DNA from: a bacterium
Lineage (GTDB): Bacteria; Hinthialibacterota; Hinthialibacteria; OLB16
Reading direction: 5' to 3'
DNA: 64,000 nucleotides
Assembly (NCBI GenBank): GCA_022072055.1
Contig: JAJVIK010000007.1
Coordinates: 62,001-126,000, forward strand
Shown: piece by piece, positions 2,219-42,974 of the stretch
Layout: the number at the start of each line of letters is the position of its first letter
Numbering within the stretch: the stretch's first letter is position 1
Position numbers and translations under genes: made by a program
Notes under the pieces: generated by a model
The model's database searches: none
The model's input: only the letters and a program-made list of their open reading frames with translations
Told to the model about the DNA's origin: nothing

Positions 2219-4870
<2,652 letters not shown>

Positions 4871-31847: not shown

Positions 31848-32045
31848 TTAGCGCTTCAGGGGTGGTGGGACATGCAGTTGGCGACAGATTGCGCGCGCCA
31901 GAAAGTCGTCAATCTCCACATGGCGAGGAATCGTGGACTGGCGACTCCTATCCGAGAGGTTCACATACCGAGAATGTTTTCCGCCTTCCCTCAGAAGATA
32001 GCAGCCGTGCGTCTCAATATGGCGAATCAGCTCTTGACGCTTCAC
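31848..32045 (-). CDS. hicA: HicA-like mRNA interferase toxin
   Basis: This 65-residue protein has the small dsRBD-like HicA fold: KRQELIRHIETHGCYLLREGGKHSRYVN, split here into 'ELIRHIETHGC' and 'REGGKHSRY', with the catalytic His in GGKHS, then 'STIPRHVEIDD'. HicA toxins cleave mRNA when freed from HicB. The GTG start at 32045 overlaps the hicB stop (GTGA), so hicB precedes hicA and the two are coupled. hicB upstream of hicA is the reverse of the more frequent order. Confidence 0.88.
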   Translation of the reverse strand: MKRQELIRHIETHGCYLLREGGKHSRYVNLSDRSRQSTIPRHVEIDDFLARAICRQLHVPPPLKR

Positions 32046-32251
32046 ACCTCGATCTCTTCCTGAATGATGCTCTCGGAGGAAAACGGAATGTCCTCCCAAT
32101 CCACGGGCTCCTCCATGGCGGCTATGGCATCCTTGAGATTCTCTCTGGCCTCCTCAAGCGTCCGACCTTGAGTCAGGGCGCCGGGGACATCATCGGTCCA
32201 TGCCACCCACCACTCATCCCGGTGCAGGAACTGTGCGCGGATCGTTCGCAT
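32042..32251 (-). CDS. hicB: HicB-like antitoxin
   Basis: This 69-residue protein has the HicB core: MRTIRAQFLHRDEWWVAW, then 'DVPGALTQGRTLEEARENL', and a short acidic C-terminal tail. It would neutralise the HicA product encoded immediately downstream and probably autoregulate. It lacks a separate DNA-binding domain, so it belongs to the short form. ATG 32251 is preceded by GGAGG and AAGG. Confidence 0.85.
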   Translation of the reverse strand: MRTIRAQFLHRDEWWVAWTDDVPGALTQGRTLEEARENLKDAIAAMEEPVDWEDIPFSSESIIQEEIEV

Positions 32252-32354
32252 GCGTCCTTGTCCTCCTCGCTGTTTCGCGGTCTGATAGCATCCTTCCACA
32301 TTATGCCCCCCCTCCTACCGCCGACACAACCGACACATTCGGACCCGTCTCCGC

Positions 32355-35727: not shown

Positions 35728-35814
35728 GGGATGATTTCTCCGGCCAGGAATGGCCTGGACAATACGATAGCGGACCGGGCGGACCTTTGCGAGACTTTCC
35801 CTAGGAGGAGACTG

Positions 35815-36201
35815 TTGACGAGCATTGACCGACCGTCCAGCCTGAGAATAGATCCGAACATTGAACTAATGGCCTTCAACCCAGATCTCCCACTTGACCT
35901 GAAGTCGGCGGGTTGGAAAGTGAAGATTCGAGACAAGGAGCGGTTGGAGGAACCCCACATCACGAACCTTAAGGAACCTGAATCTTCGTGGAGACTTTCC
36001 CTCCTATCCAAGGAATTCCTGCATCCCGGAGGCAATTGGAGCGAAATTGATGGAGGGGTGAGACACGCCGGGGAGCATAACTGGATGAGCCTGATCAAGG
36101 AATGGAACCGCACATACCCGGGAAACCCTGATCGTTGGTGTCGCCTACGATGCTCCAGGCCAATCCCTCTGGGTTATTCGTGGCGACTCTCGCCGATTTA
36201 G
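35815..36201 (+). CDS. Uncharacterised small protein, first gene of a two-gene cassette
   Basis: This protein of about 128 residues is not recognised with certainty. The core reads 'GWKVKIRDKERLEEPHIT', 'SWRLSLLSKEFLHPGGNW', then 'LIKEWNRTYPGNP'. I remember similar small proteins beside a second ORF like the one that follows, without a known function. The TTG start at 35815 has an excellent Shine-Dalgarno (GGAGGA, 5-nt spacing); ATG 35869 is an alternative with none. The last dozen or so residues after 'YPGNP' look like read-through of the second gene in another frame, so the natural stop may have been lost. Confidence 0.55.
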   Translation: MTSIDRPSSLRIDPNIELMAFNPDLPLDLKSAGWKVKIRDKERLEEPHITNLKEPESSWRLSLLSKEFLHPGGNWSEIDGGVRHAGEHNWMSLIKEWNRTYPGNPDRWCRLRCSRPIPLGYSWRLSPI

Positions 36202-36349
36202 GGTGCCGATGTCATTCTTCGAACCATCTGGGATGGCAAGTCCTGACCCCGCGCGCCTCTCCGTCGAGGATTTTGGGCACACGGTCAAGATGGGAGAATA
36301 CGAAGCCGCTTCGGATGCAATTCTCCACGCCGCTGTTGGGGCGGACTAA
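36128..36349 (+). CDS. Uncharacterised small protein, second gene of the cassette, no canonical start
   Basis: The frame open from 36095 to the stop at 36347-36349 encodes a coherent protein: LIVGVAYDAPGQSLWVIRG, 'FRVPMSFFEPSGMA', 'SVEDFGHTVKMGEYEAASDAIL'. The closing 'D.G.TvK.GEYEA..DAIL' motif is strongly structured, so I believe it is or was a gene. There is no ATG, GTG or TTG before the conserved part. CTG 36128 (GGGA 7 nt upstream) is the best start, or it is produced by frameshift from the first gene, or it is decayed. It overlaps the convergent Uma2 gene by 4 nt. Confidence 0.45.
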   Translation: MIVGVAYDAPGQSLWVIRGDSRRFRVPMSFFEPSGMASPDPARLSVEDFGHTVKMGEYEAASDAILHAAVGAD

Positions 36350-36900
36350 GGTTTGGCGAAGAGCGCCTTGAGGTCCACTTCAAGACCTTCCGCAAGACCC
36401 TCCCCCATCGCAACCTCATCCCCCTCCACCCTCACACGACGCCCATCCTTGTGGATAAACTCCAGGGAGCGTTTCTCCGGATCGACGATCCAGACTTGCT
36501 CGCTTCCCGCTTGGAAATACTTCGCGGTCTTGTAGGCAATCTCGGCGGGCGTGTTCGAGGGGGAAAGGACTTCCACCGCCACCTCCGGCGCGAACTCAAG
36601 CCAGGGACTTTCGGACTCAGGGCGGCGACGAAATAAACTTGCATCCGGGGAAAGGAGGATGTCCGGGCGACGCTCGATTAGAAATCCTTCATTGTCGCCG
36701 CCCATGTCCAGTCCGTGCCGCTTCCCGCAGAATTCACTGAGGAGCAGGTGGAGGCGAAGGGCCACTCGATTGTGGAATCTCCCGGCGGGCGTCATGGTCA
36801 CCAGTTCCCCCTCGATAATCTCCACGAATTTTTCGGGCATCCCCGGCGCGAGGAGGTCCTCCGCTCGAAAAGCTCCGTACGGTTGAGTCTGGACCGGCAT
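36346..36900 (-). CDS. Uma2-family (DUF820) endonuclease-fold protein
   Basis: This 184-residue protein has the Uma2 pattern: 'YEIIEGELV.MTPAGRFHNRV'-like N-terminus, 'DILLSPDASLF' with the catalytic Asp, then 'FAPEVAVEVLSPSNT', containing the Glu and V of the PD-(D/E)xK fold. It ends 'AKYFQAGSEQVWIVDPEKRSLEF'. Uma2 proteins are very numerous in some phyla; a role in DNA cleavage or mobile-element biology is suspected but not established. It overlaps the convergent cassette ORF by 4 nt. Confidence 0.85.
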   Translation of the reverse strand: MPVQTQPYGAFRAEDLLAPGMPEKFVEIIEGELVTMTPAGRFHNRVALRLHLLLSEFCGKRHGLDMGGDNEGFLIERRPDILLSPDASLFRRRPESESPWLEFAPEVAVEVLSPSNTPAEIAYKTAKYFQAGSEQVWIVDPEKRSLEFIHKDGRRVRVEGDEVAMGEGLAEGLEVDLKALFAKP

Positions 36901-37107: not shown

Positions 37108-37584
37108 ATGAAACCAACCGACCTGTTCAAACCGCCAAAACTCACGGGAAGGGTCTCCGCCGGCCTTCTGATCCTGAGAGTCCTGATCGGTTTTGCCTTC
37201 ATGAACCACGGTTTTGGGAAGATTCAGAATCCGTTCGGGTGGATGGGGCCAGACTCCAGCGTTCCCGGACTTTTTCAGGCGCTTGCGGCCCTATCGGAGT
37301 TCGGGGGCGGCTTGGCTTGGATTTTGGGCTTGCTGACTCCGCTCGCGTCCTTGGGCATTGCCTCCACGATGATTGTGGCGACCTGCTTGCACGCGTTCGT
37401 GTTCGGGGATCCCTTTGTGGCCGGCGGGCCCGGACAAGGCTCCTATGAACCGGCCTCCGTGTATCTTGCCTTCGCCATCTTCCTCCTGCTCGCCGGGCCG
37501 GGAAGTTTTTCCCTGGATCGGGTCGTTTTCGGTGAAAAAGGGGCGGACGTGGATCAAGGTCGGGCGTGGTCGAGCTCGAATTGA
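37108..37584 (+). CDS. DoxX-family membrane protein
   Basis: This 158-residue protein has four hydrophobic segments with the DoxX landmarks 'LRVLIGFAFMNHGFGKI', 'ALSEFGGGLAWILGLLTPLAS' and 'GPGSFSLDRVV'. DoxX proteins sit in the inner membrane; roles in redox or thiosulfate metabolism are reported for some members only. ATG 37108 has AAAGGA at 6 nt. The 3' end overlaps the convergent protease gene by 31 nt. Confidence 0.85.
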   Translation: MKPTDLFKPPKLTGRVSAGLLILRVLIGFAFMNHGFGKIQNPFGWMGPDSSVPGLFQALAALSEFGGGLAWILGLLTPLASLGIASTMIVATCLHAFVFGDPFVAGGPGQGSYEPASVYLAFAIFLLLAGPGSFSLDRVVFGEKGADVDQGRAWSSSN

Positions 37585-37970
37585 AGACGCGCTCCATGGA
37601 AACTGACATCAAACTGCTGGAAGAAATTCACCTGTCCGAGGAGCAGGGGGACATCGTCAGATTCGCTCCATGCAAAGATCAGCGGGACCGGTTCCATCGC
37701 GGCGATATGAGCTTCAACGATTAATGCCCGTGCATCATGCGCCGCGAGATTCCCCGTCAACCTGACCGAGGGGCTTTGAGTTTTCCAGTCCGCCCCCAGT
37801 CGGATGCCAAGGCTATAGGGCATTACGTTCACTGTTGCGCCGGAGTCGAGAAGTCCATGAGTGGACACGGGATTCGCTGTGGCGAGACACAATTCCAAGG
37901 GGAGCAGCGGAGCGAGGAAGGTCTCTCCCGATGTCCCGAAGAGCGGGAGGTACGGAAAGCGGATGGGCAT
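37554..37970 (-). CDS. Retropepsin-like aspartyl protease
   Basis: This 138-residue protein carries the single-lobe aspartic-protease motif DSGAT at residues 42-46 (GLLDSGATVNVMPYS). It ends with the hydrophobic 'VPLLLGQVNFFQQFDVSF', like the 'ILG...l..f' flank of retropepsins. Such single-lobe enzymes act as dimers. It has no signal peptide. It is the second gene of a two-gene unit with the 69-residue ORF, 3 nt apart. This pairing recurs in other phyla as far as I know, but has no assigned function. Confidence 0.75.
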   Translation of the reverse strand: MPIRFPYLPLFGTSGETFLAPLLPLELCLATANPVSTHGLLDSGATVNVMPYSLGIRLGADWKTQSPSVRLTGNLAAHDARALIVEAHIAAMEPVPLIFAWSESDDVPLLLGQVNFFQQFDVSFHGARLQFELDHARP

Positions 37971-37973
37971 GGT

Positions 37974-38183
37974 TTATCGCCCGCCCGACATCCGCTCCAG
38001 ATGTTGAGTCAGGACCGACGCGGCATCCAGCGCGTCGTGAGGAGACCAAACCGGATAGGATTTCCCATCCTCCAAGGCAGCGGTCTCCTCCCGCTCGAGA
38101 TCGACTGAAAGAAACTGGAGGGCTCGAAACTTGTCCGAACGCGGCAATCCATGGAGCACGGGCAACAAATCTGTCAGGTTCAT
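37974..38183 (-). CDS. Small helical protein paired with the retropepsin-like protease
   Basis: This 69-residue protein begins MNLTDLLPVLHGLPRSDKF, contains 'RALQFLSVDLERE', and has a central 'SYPVWSPHDALDAA' motif before a C-terminal helix. It is not an assigned family. It lies 3 nt upstream of the protease gene on the same strand, so they form one transcript. Size and pairing recall antitoxin or adaptor proteins, which is an inference. The gene may be leaderless (see the promoter entry at 38192-38221). Confidence 0.55.
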   Translation of the reverse strand: MNLTDLLPVLHGLPRSDKFRALQFLSVDLEREETAALEDGKSYPVWSPHDALDAASVLTQHLERMSGGR

Positions 38184-39776: not shown

Positions 39777-42700
39777 ATGCCTGTCCCCGAGGAACTGGTC
39801 CAACTGACCGAGCGTTTCGCGGAAAACCTCGACGCCTACCGGTCGGGTCTCTACAAGGAGGCCCAGTTGCGCCAGGAGTTTCTGGACCCCTTCTTCAAAC
39901 TCCTCGGCTGGGATGTGGACAATGTCGAGGGGAGCGCCGAGGCCTACAAGGATGTGATCCATGAGGACTCGATCAAGGTCGGCGGCGGCACCGAGGCCCC
40001 GGATTACTGCTTCCGAATCGGCGGGACCCGCAAGTTCTTCGTGGAGGCCAAGAAGCCCTCGGTGTATGTGAAGGAGGAAATCCCTCCCGCCTTCCAACTG
40101 CGTCGTTACGCCTGGTCGGCCAAGCTCCCCCTCTCGATCCTCACCGATTTCGAGGAGTTCGCGGTCTACGACTGCCGGATCAAACCGGTCAAGACAGACA
40201 AGGCCTCCACCGCGCGGATCTTCTACTGCACCTTCCGCGAATACCCAGAGCACTGGGACTGGATTGCCTCGATCTTCACCAAGGAGGCAATCCGCAAGGG
40301 GTCCTTCGACCGCTTCGCCGAGTCCACCAAGGCCAAGCGCGGAACCGCCGAGGTGGACCGGGCGTTTCTCGATGAGATCGAGGGATGGCGGGAGCAGCTC
40401 GCCCGGAACCTGCTGCATCGTAATCCTGGGCTTTCGCAACGCGACCTGAACTTCGCGGTCCAGAAGATCATCGACCGGATCGTGTTCCTGCGCATCTGCG
40501 AGGATCGAGGGATCGAGCCTTACGGCAGGCTCCGTGCGTTCGCCGAAGGGGTTGGGGTCTACGAACGGTTGGGAGTGGCCTTCCATGAGGCCGATGAGCG
40601 TTACAACTCGGGACTGTTCCACTTTCGGCGTGAAAAAGAGCGTAATGAGCCGCCCGATGAACTCACCCCACGACTCCGGGTGGATGACAAGATCCTCAAG
40701 GAGATCCTGAGAAGCCTCTATTACCCCGAAAGCCCCTATGAGTTTTCGGTCCTGCCGGTGGACATCCTTGGACAGGTGTACGAACAGTTCCTGGGCAAGG
40801 TGATTGTCCTTAAGTCGCCCACACGCGCGGAGGTGGAGGAGAAGCCGGAGGTGCGCAAGGCCGGCGGGGTCTTTTACACGCCGACCTATATTGTCGATTA
40901 CATTGTCAAGCACACGCTCGGTCCGTTCTTGGAGGGAAGAGGACCAGAAGACATTCGCGCCGGCGCGCTCCGGGTTCTCGATCCCGCGTGTGGTTCGGGC
41001 TCCTTCTTGTTGGGGGCCTACCAATACCTGCTGGATTGGCATCGGGACTGGTACAATGCCAATGGTCCGGAGAAGTGGTCGCGTGGCAAGAATCCAAGGT
41101 TGGTGCAGACCGGATCCCTCGCTCCTCGGGCCGCGGCTCGCGGGGAGTCGCGAGAGAACGGCTGGCGCCTGACCCTTCCCGAAAGAAAGCGCATCCTCCT
41201 GGACCATATCTTCGGCGTGGATATCGATCCACAAGCCGTGGAGGTGACCAAGCTCTCGCTGCTCATCAAGGTGGTCGAGGGGGAGACCGGGGAGAGCTTG
41301 GAGAACCAGCGCACGATCTACCATGAGCGCGCTCTTCCGGATCTCGGCGCGAACATCAAGTGCGGCAATTCGCTGATCGGCCCGGACATCTATCGCGGCC
41401 GGCAGATGGAGATGTTTGACGAGGAGGAGCTTTATCGGATCAATGCGTTCGATTGGAGGCGGGAGTTTCCTATGGTGTTCGGCTCGACTTCCTCCCACTC
41501 CCTCCCCTGGTCGTCAAGTCGAGATTCCCTTGCCCCCTCCCACTCCCTCCCCCGGTCGGGGGAGGGTTGGGGTGGGGGCTTCCACGCGGTCATCGGAAAT
41601 CCGCCATACATCCGCATCCAATCCCTTCAAGAGAACCGACCCCACGAGGCGGCGTATTACAGGGAACGATTCCGCGCCGGGGGCAAGGGGAACTTCGATA
41701 TTTATGTTCTGTTCGTGGAACACGGACTGGACCTTCTGAATGAGACTGGTCGGCTCGGCTTCATCCTGCCGCACAAGTTCTTCAACGCGAAATACGGCGC
41801 GCCGCTACGAGCCATAATCGCCGAGGGGAAGCATCTGTCACACGTCGTCCATTTCGGGGACCAGCAGGTTTTCAAGGGGCCGACGACCTATACGTGTCTG
41901 CTGTTTCTTGAAAAGCGGGGCGCCACCGAGTGTCACATAGTTCGAGTGAGTAGTCTTATGGATTGGCTGGATCGTAAACCGGCTGTCGAAGGAAATGTTC
42001 CGGCGCGCCTCATCTCCGCGGCGGAGTGGTCGTTTCCAGTCGGAAACGGACGGCGACTCCTGGAGCGCCTCAGCAAATTCCCCGTGAAGTTGTCGGACGC
42101 CACCACGCGGATCTTCCAGGGGATCAAGACAAGCTCGGACAAGGTTTATGTTGTTGAGGAGGTTTCGAGACGTGGAAGGCAGGTTCAAGTCCACTCTCGA
42201 GAAACCGATTCCAAGTACTGGCTGGAGAAAGCCCTCCTCCACCCCTTGATCAAGGGTGGCGACAGCAAACGATACGCCCTTTCACGCACAAAACTCCTGA
42301 TTCTGTTCCCTTATGCGCCAAGCACGGAAGCGAAGATGACCCTTATCTCAAGGGAAGTCATGGAAAAGAAATATCCGCACGCTTGGGAATACCTCCTCGC
42401 AAACAGAAAAGTCCTTCGCGACCGCGAGCGCGGGAGGATGCGCGTTCGGGACTGGCATGGCTATATATACCCCAAGGCCCTCGATATCATGCATCATCCG
42501 AAGATATTCACCCCGGACATCGCTGCTCGGGCATCCTTTTCGCTCGACCCCACCGGCGAGGTGTTCTTCTTGGGTGGAGTCGCGGGGGGATACGGAATTC
42601 TACCAAGACCAGAGTTCAATCAGTACTATCTCCTCGGGCTTCTCAACAGCCGTGTGCTGGAGTGGGTCATTCGGAGGACAACGACCCAGATGAGGGGCGG

Positions 42701-42974
42701 GTATTACAGTTACGAGTCGCGCTTTATACGAAATCTCCCCATCCGCCCGATCGATTTCTCCGACAAGAAGGACAGGGCCCGCCACGAACGAATGGTCTCC
42801 CTCGTGGAGCGCATGCTCGATCTGCACAAGCGGCTGCCCGAGGCGAAAACCGATCATGCGAAAACCCTGCTCCAGCGCCAGATCGAGGCCACCGACACCG
42901 AGATCGACGAGCTGGTGTACGACCTTTACGAGCTTACCCCAGAGGAAATCCGCATCATCGAGGAGGGCTTTTAA
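39777..42974 (+). CDS. Single-chain Type IIG restriction-modification enzyme (Eco57I-like)
   Basis: This 1065-residue protein joins an N-terminal PD-(D/E)xK nuclease (D76, E90 and K92, from 'APDYCF' and 'FFVEAKKP') to an N6-adenine methyltransferase. The methyltransferase has motif I DPACGSGSF near 405 and motif IV NPPY (608-611). A C-terminal specificity region with TaqI-like features ends in a helical bundle. It would both cut and methylate a specific DNA site. Between about residues 568 and 602 there is an in-frame low-complexity insert made of a palindromic repeat (see 41487-41581). No separate specificity subunit or methylase is adjacent. Confidence 0.9.
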   Translation: MPVPEELVQLTERFAENLDAYRSGLYKEAQLRQEFLDPFFKLLGWDVDNVEGSAEAYKDVIHEDSIKVGGGTEAPDYCFRIGGTRKFFVEAKKPSVYVKEEIPPAFQLRRYAWSAKLPLSILTDFEEFAVYDCRIKPVKTDKASTARIFYCTFREYPEHWDWIASIFTKEAIRKGSFDRFAESTKAKRGTAEVDRAFLDEIEGWREQLARNLLHRNPGLSQRDLNFAVQKIIDRIVFLRICEDRGIEPYGRLRAFAEGVGVYERLGVAFHEADERYNSGLFHFRREKERNEPPDELTPRLRVDDKILKEILRSLYYPESPYEFSVLPVDILGQVYEQFLGKVIVLKSPTRAEVEEKPEVRKAGGVFYTPTYIVDYIVKHTLGPFLEGRGPEDIRAGALRVLDPACGSGSFLLGAYQYLLDWHRDWYNANGPEKWSRGKNPRLVQTGSLAPRAAARGESRENGWRLTLPERKRILLDHIFGVDIDPQAVEVTKLSLLIKVVEGETGESLENQRTIYHERALPDLGANIKCGNSLIGPDIYRGRQMEMFDEEELYRINAFDWRREFPMVFGSTSSHSLPWSSSRDSLAPSHSLPRSGEGWGGGFHAVIGNPPYIRIQSLQENRPHEAAYYRERFRAGGKGNFDIYVLFVEHGLDLLNETGRLGFILPHKFFNAKYGAPLRAIIAEGKHLSHVVHFGDQQVFKGPTTYTCLLFLEKRGATECHIVRVSSLMDWLDRKPAVEGNVPARLISAAEWSFPVGNGRRLLERLSKFPVKLSDATTRIFQGIKTSSDKVYVVEEVSRRGRQVQVHSRETDSKYWLEKALLHPLIKGGDSKRYALSRTKLLILFPYAPSTEAKMTLISREVMEKKYPHAWEYLLANRKVLRDRERGRMRVRDWHGYIYPKALDIMHHPKIFTPDIAARASFSLDPTGEVFFLGGVAGGYGILPRPEFNQYYLLGLLNSRVLEWVIRRTTTQMRGGYYSYESRFIRNLPIRPIDFSDKKDRARHERMVSLVERMLDLHKRLPEAKTDHAKTLLQRQIEATDTEIDELVYDLYELTPEEIRIIEEGF
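41487..41581. repeat. In-frame palindromic repeat inside the Type IIG gene
   Basis: Two similar units (each with CTCCCACTCCCTCCCC followed by a GGTCG block) lie in tandem. The second contains a perfect 9-bp stem, CCCTCCCCC and GGGGGAGGG at 41545-41566, with a 4-nt loop. They encode a Ser/Pro/Gly-rich segment just before the NPPY motif, out of character with the flanks, so this looks like insertion of a mobile intergenic-type repeat that kept the frame. Confidence 0.6.

Follow-up and report, generated by a model that had tools for sequence, protein, structure and literature searches.

Organization of the locus

Two small open reading frames, frame 1 (35815-36201) and frame 2 (36128-36349), lie head-to-tail on the plus strand of the 64-kb stretch of DNA that was analysed here (the window). 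Homology to related loci divides this region into the following features:

35728..35868, no strand assigned: intergenic region 5′ of gene 1, in which the operator/promoter-like inverted repeat of the relatives is absent
35815..35868, plus strand: upstream in-frame extension from a TTG, unseen in relatives and probably outside gene 1
35869..36129, plus strand: gene 1 core of 87 codons with an ATG start, toxin-like and a distant DUF4160 relative according to the family profile and an hhalign comparison with DUF4160
36130..36201, plus strand: continuation of the gene 1 frame beyond the homologous end (DRWCRLRC..SPI, then stop), non-homologous
36128..36349, plus strand: gene 2 fragment comprising only the DUF2442-like middle domain, with homology from about 36128 to 36328
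36346..36900, minus strand: Uma2 family gene, a convergent neighbour outside the module that directly abuts gene 2

An earlier note on this DNA had described two coherent coding frames, and this description was borne out. Both frames are open, and in a profile search of the window frames gene 1 and gene 2 matched the profiles of their relatives with E=1.3e-32 and E=5e-22, respectively, while the next-best frame gave E>4. The GC contents at the three codon positions are 0.55/0.41/0.65 for gene 1 and 0.68/0.49/0.59 for gene 2, and differences from the relatives are in excess at third positions, as in coding DNA. Judged by composition and homology, both frames are genuine coding sequence. The stretch 36130..36201 has values of 0.52/0.70/0.52, unlike coding DNA.

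The strong Shine-Dalgarno sequence which the same note had assigned to gene 1 is present as AGGAGGA, but it precedes TTG 35815 and not the homologous start, which is ATG 35869 according to the family start M-[AP]-[FYI]; the 18-residue extension that would result from TTG 35815 is unseen in relatives. The gene 1 core retains 11 of 11 family-invariant columns (W16, K17, K19, E24, P29, H30, W41, R42, L45, W79 and N86 in window numbering) and deviates at 2 of 19 near-invariant positions; it carries an R46 to L exchange and a one-residue insertion near residue 33. The gene 2 piece deviates at 3 of 15 conserved positions, two of them in a diverged tail at the end of the domain. Since conserved residues are largely intact in both frames, any loss of function would be recent.

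The junction between the genes is damaged. Homology of gene 1 stops at 36129 (..GNP) and homology of gene 2 begins at 36128 in the +1 frame, a TGA lies one base out of the gene 1 frame, and the latter extends 23 codons past its homologous end before a stop is reached. Alignment of the relatives with 36128, which had been proposed as a check, revealed a stop/start overlap or a close junction at this point. The statement that gene 2 lacks any ATG, GTG or TTG is correct for the region before and across the first third of the conserved domain, but GTG 36203 and later ATGs exist; no standard start codon occurs before 36203, and use of these later codons would cut the domain. The stop codon of gene 2 (TAA, 36347-36349) overlaps that of the Uma2 gene. 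The N-terminal and helix-turn-helix (HTH) parts by which gene 2 is extended in relatives were absent throughout the 64-kb window in a profile search, and the window copy does not possess both genes with start and stop codons together with a complete antitoxin.

Relatives in other genomes

The first clear relative was found by a search of 386 genomes in G286 (locus L009), where the homologue is 45-48% identical to the gene 1 core. The gene behind it encodes 297 aa; the frame 2 sequence makes up the middle of this protein, and a Cro/C1-type HTH comes after it. Two further relatives (L011 and L012) came from the phylum of G286. An alignment of four sequences was then used for one scan of approximately 85,000 species-level genomes, which yielded 26 loci (L013-L038), all of them metagenome-assembled. 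These belong mostly to Planctomycetota, Myxococcota/'Deltaproteobacteria' and Chloroflexota, and additionally to Rokuibacteriota, Gemmatimonas and others; L024 and L029 apparently represent L011 and L012 again, given their identical sequences. The earlier note had named a lack of homologues in any genome as evidence against coding frames, and had asked whether homologues are adjacent genes: 26 related loci exist, and wherever gene 2 is readable it is located directly downstream of gene 1.

Both genes were found in the same two genomes among the 386 broadly drawn ones; the family is therefore rare and its genes travel together. Divergence of gene 1 and gene 2 is correlated across 22 loci (mirror correlation, r=0.64, p=2e-4); for the window row alone the value is uninformative (r=-0.16). 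One IMG/VR contig classed as viral (IMGVR_UViG_3300043425_001282, L099/L100) carries the pair together with the operator-like repeat, which suggests mobility. A search of 72,556 plasmid records, for which three relatives served as queries, detected no family member, and no further copy was present in the 14 genomes of the phylum to which the window belongs; four weak matches there (L003-L006, E 0.009-0.07) were judged to be due to chance. The genes around the relatives are varied and often of housekeeping type. In L013, which is among the closest gene 1 relatives, a DUF790 gene (2667-3923) lies immediately 5′ of the pair.

Intact gene 1 encodes about 87-107 aa and has the core GWKVKIRDKERLEPPHVTI..WR..LR...FLD...L...WD.MYP.NPV. 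An overlap of 4-32 nt with gene 2, most commonly of 4 or 8 nt, is present in 17 of the 24 pairs, and in the non-overlapping pairs gene 2 mostly starts at most 20 nt from gene 1. Intact gene 2 encodes approximately 257-297 aa in three domains, namely an N-terminal alpha/beta domain, a mostly beta DUF2442-like domain of approximately 70 aa that contains D.GQT..G.YEA..DAILY, and a Cro/C1-type HTH. All 24 gene 2 proteins scanned matched HTH_3, and the AlphaFold2 model of gene 2 from L013 has a mean pLDDT of 91.

Conserved inverted repeat upstream of gene 1

An inverted repeat with the consensus AATGTCCY-N22/23-RGGACATWT lies 5′ of gene 1 with a score of at least 12/14 in 20 of 27 relatives, a score that only 0.08% of 2534 random segments from the same loci reached. 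The motif was first spotted as an inverted repeat, without use of its sequence. TTGAC occurs within the spacer in about half of the relatives, and the right half-site falls at the position expected for the -10 element. The IMG/VR locus, which was left out of motif discovery, has the repeat as well, differing at one position of the left hexamer (GTGTCC). Due to its absence from 25 classical DUF4160 loci with a partner lacking an HTH (maximum score 11), the repeat is tied to the HTH-bearing variant. From this arrangement we infer that the HTH of gene 2 would bind the inverted repeat, so that the pair would repress itself.

In the window the repeat is absent from 35728..35868, where the best score is 10/14, a value that 26% of random segments attain. 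At C5:20233, outside the window, the host genome has a perfect match to the operator pattern; this was dismissed as chance, as it lies inside a coding frame of 422 codons.

Relationship to DUF4160-DUF2442 pairs and other known systems

The window proteins gave no family match in Pfam, NCBIfam, PADLOC (including its defence models) or PHROGs and no meaningful match to solved structures; viral contigs, plasmids and phages searched with the single window proteins gave no matches either. For the model of gene 1 (pLDDT 88), Foldseek against PDB and BFVD returned nothing at E<=0.001, so that structure matches lend no support to a toxin fold. The best PDB matches of the gene 2 model (pLDDT 91) span only the HTH and leave out its N-terminal domain.

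The EPPH motif and the L...W C-terminus of gene 1 are reminiscent of DUF4160, and the second protein is reminiscent of DUF2442. Profiles of both families were built from other genomes and compared with hhalign. In these pairwise comparisons, which are made without a database background, gene 1 matched DUF4160 with a probability of 92% (pairwise E 5.5e-7) and the middle domain of gene 2 matched DUF2442 with a probability of 82% (pairwise E 1.1e-5); swapped pairings gave at most 1% and column shuffles at most 2.3%. In single-sequence scans the Pfam cut-offs for DUF4160 and DUF2442 were missed; for DUF4160 there was no match for the window protein, and three of the 24 members gave weak matches, the best with E 0.05. 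Membership of the two Pfam families is therefore not claimed. Across 61 genomes, the gene after DUF4160 was DUF2442 in 52 of 57 cases, the same order as here. Gene 1 and gene 2 would thus be distant relatives, on sequence grounds, of an experimentally supported kind of toxin-antitoxin (TA) pair in which the toxin comes first.

Two such pairs have been studied. In DhiTA of Dickeya dadantii, DhiT inhibits growth and DhiTA does not, and DhiA acts as a repressor on its own promoter, the toxin serving as co-repressor (PMC8198452). The persistence enhancing module (PEM) of Thermus plasmids consists of a DUF4160 protein of 87 aa and a DUF2442 protein of 92 aa and stabilises plasmids; a plasmid without the second ORF yielded no transformants (PMC12724237). 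The passages of both papers that deal with the tested pairs give no toxin target. The present family shares with DhiTA two small genes with the toxin-like one first, a short overlap and, at the profile level, distant homology of both proteins. DhiA and DhiTA repress the promoter of their own operon; for the present family, autoregulation is predicted from the operator-like repeat and the HTH. Unlike DhiTA, intact relatives have a three-domain second protein with a C-terminal HTH and a conserved operator-like repeat; furthermore, the similarity lies under Pfam thresholds, toxicity is postulated by analogy, and the window copy is broken. PEM has the identical order and domain pair and a gene 1 of similar size, but is plasmid-borne and has a one-domain second protein.

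A DUF2442-type N-terminal domain joined to an HTH is presumably found in NE0471 of Nitrosomonas europaea (PDB 2AUW); compared with this presumed layout, the present family has one more N-terminal domain. The fold matches listed for the gene 2 model did not include 2AUW. NE0471 is listed as an HTH protein in PMC9410881. Like antitoxins of the HigA/HipB type, gene 2 has a Cro/C1-fold HTH repressor domain that would autoregulate a TA operon, but in the present family this HTH is joined to a DUF2442-like domain, and gene 1 showed no relation to the toxins of HigA/HipB-type systems in the searches made.

Interpretation and alternative explanations

By homology to DhiTA and PEM, intact gene 1 would encode a DUF4160-like putative toxin and intact gene 2 a putative antitoxin that also acts as repressor. 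The DUF2442-like domain of gene 2 may bind and neutralise the gene 1 product, while the C-terminal HTH would bind AATGTCCY-N22/23-RGGACATWT, which spans the promoter, and thereby cause autorepression. On balance, it is rather likely that the intact relatives form a new TA family with a DUF4160-like toxin, a three-domain antitoxin-repressor whose N-terminal domain is new, and its own conserved operator, in several phyla, of which the window holds a decayed copy. The window itself probably contains a remnant, with little or no function left, of a type II TA-like operon of this undescribed, DhiTA-like family. The module is damaged and most probably dead: it has lost its operator, the N-terminal and HTH domains, the stop/start junction and any usable start of gene 2. 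A functional antitoxin is therefore not expected, in which case gene 1 would have to be inactive or silent as well. The earlier suggestion of a TA-like module in early decay agrees with the gene order, the overlap, the DUF4160/DUF2442 homology and the HTH of the relatives, but with the operator and two of three antitoxin domains lost, decay may have gone beyond 'early'.

The ends of the retained gene 2 piece lie close to the domain borders, a precision not required of a random remnant, and this speaks against a remnant. The locus might instead be a real one-domain variant laid out like the classical DUF4160-DUF2442 pairs, its junction being explained by a recent one-nucleotide loss, a misassembly or a CTG start. 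Such a variant would account for gene 2 homology that begins and ends near the borders of the DUF2442-like domain, for gene 1 homology that ends where that of gene 2 begins with a TGA one base off frame (the pattern of a damaged overlap), and for the retained coding signature. It is nevertheless considered unlikely: all relatives with a readable gene 2 have three domains, no one-domain relative was present among the 386 genomes, the operator is missing too, and two of the three changes at conserved gene 2 positions are in the tail that diverges at the domain end. Because the data contain three-domain relatives only, an origin from a three-domain operon via larger deletions is favoured. An assembly error at the junction is possible, as one genome is concerned, but it would leave the missing operator and HTH unexplained.

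Intact pairs could also consist of a regulator (gene 2) and a small partner or sensor (gene 1), self-regulated via the same operator and not acting as a TA system. The two proteins correspond, in matching order, to the components of a TA kind with experimental support, occurrence is patchy, and two loci combine a frameshifted gene with an intact partner, gene 1 being the broken one both times, all of which makes a pure regulator improbable. In its favour are the self-contained, HTH repressor-like nature of gene 2 with its extra N-terminal domain, the varied and often housekeeping neighbours of the relatives, and the fact that toxicity of the subfamily is argued by analogy. Programmed frameshifting at 36127, by which gene 1 and gene 2 would be fused into one protein, was rejected as very improbable; the reading frame does move by +1 from the first to the second frame precisely where the homology changes over, but the zero frame at the shift point (AAC CCT GAT) has neither a stop codon nor a slippery P-site pairing, and relatives have separate, mostly overlapping genes with standard starts. 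Chance similarity between non-coding frames, for which the lack of library family matches for the window proteins could be cited, has a practically negligible probability in view of E-values of 1e-32 and 5e-22, the third-position bias and a pairing conserved in distant phyla, and is refuted by the relatives.

The intact family is apparently a hitherto undescribed and presumably self-regulating variant of DhiTA, in which toxicity is proposed by analogy. DhiTA-type modules are little studied, and a rare yet widespread variant whose antitoxin has its own repressor domain and a defined operator would offer a clean system for the study of neutralisation and autoregulation. Annotation could name a pair that at present matches no library model except for the HTH, and the window copy may serve as an example of TA decay.

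Decay in other copies and genomic neighbourhood

Gene 1 is disrupted by frame breaks next to a readable gene 2 in L029/L012 and in L037, and in L038 it is truncated just 5′ of gene 2. Another decayed copy is L034 (1250-2413), where most of gene 2 is missing and gene 1 is fused to what is left of the HTH. Loss of the toxin before the antitoxin is the pattern that would be expected of TA systems, but the numbers are small, and three of these loci come from one assembly project.

The host genome (G000) contains four DUF4160 genes, two of which (C2:50958-51143 and C31:5748-5969) had no DUF2442 partner found adjacent; these are possibly solitary toxins or genes with undetected partners. The remnant is flanked at distances of up to a few kb, to both sides, by accessory genes of the window, namely HicA-like, HicB-like and Uma2 genes, the PDC-M52A/B pair and the gene of a type IIG restriction enzyme. 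At 31848-32299 on the minus strand a HicA-like toxin gene (PF07927) overlaps a HicB/UPF0150-like antitoxin gene. Two small adjacent genes at 37554-38183 on the minus strand match the PADLOC candidates PDC-M52A (E 1e-7) and PDC-M52B (E 6e-38), and a type IIG restriction enzyme-methyltransferase (PADLOC E 4e-254) is encoded on the plus strand at 39777-42974, about 3.4 kb 3′ of the remnant.
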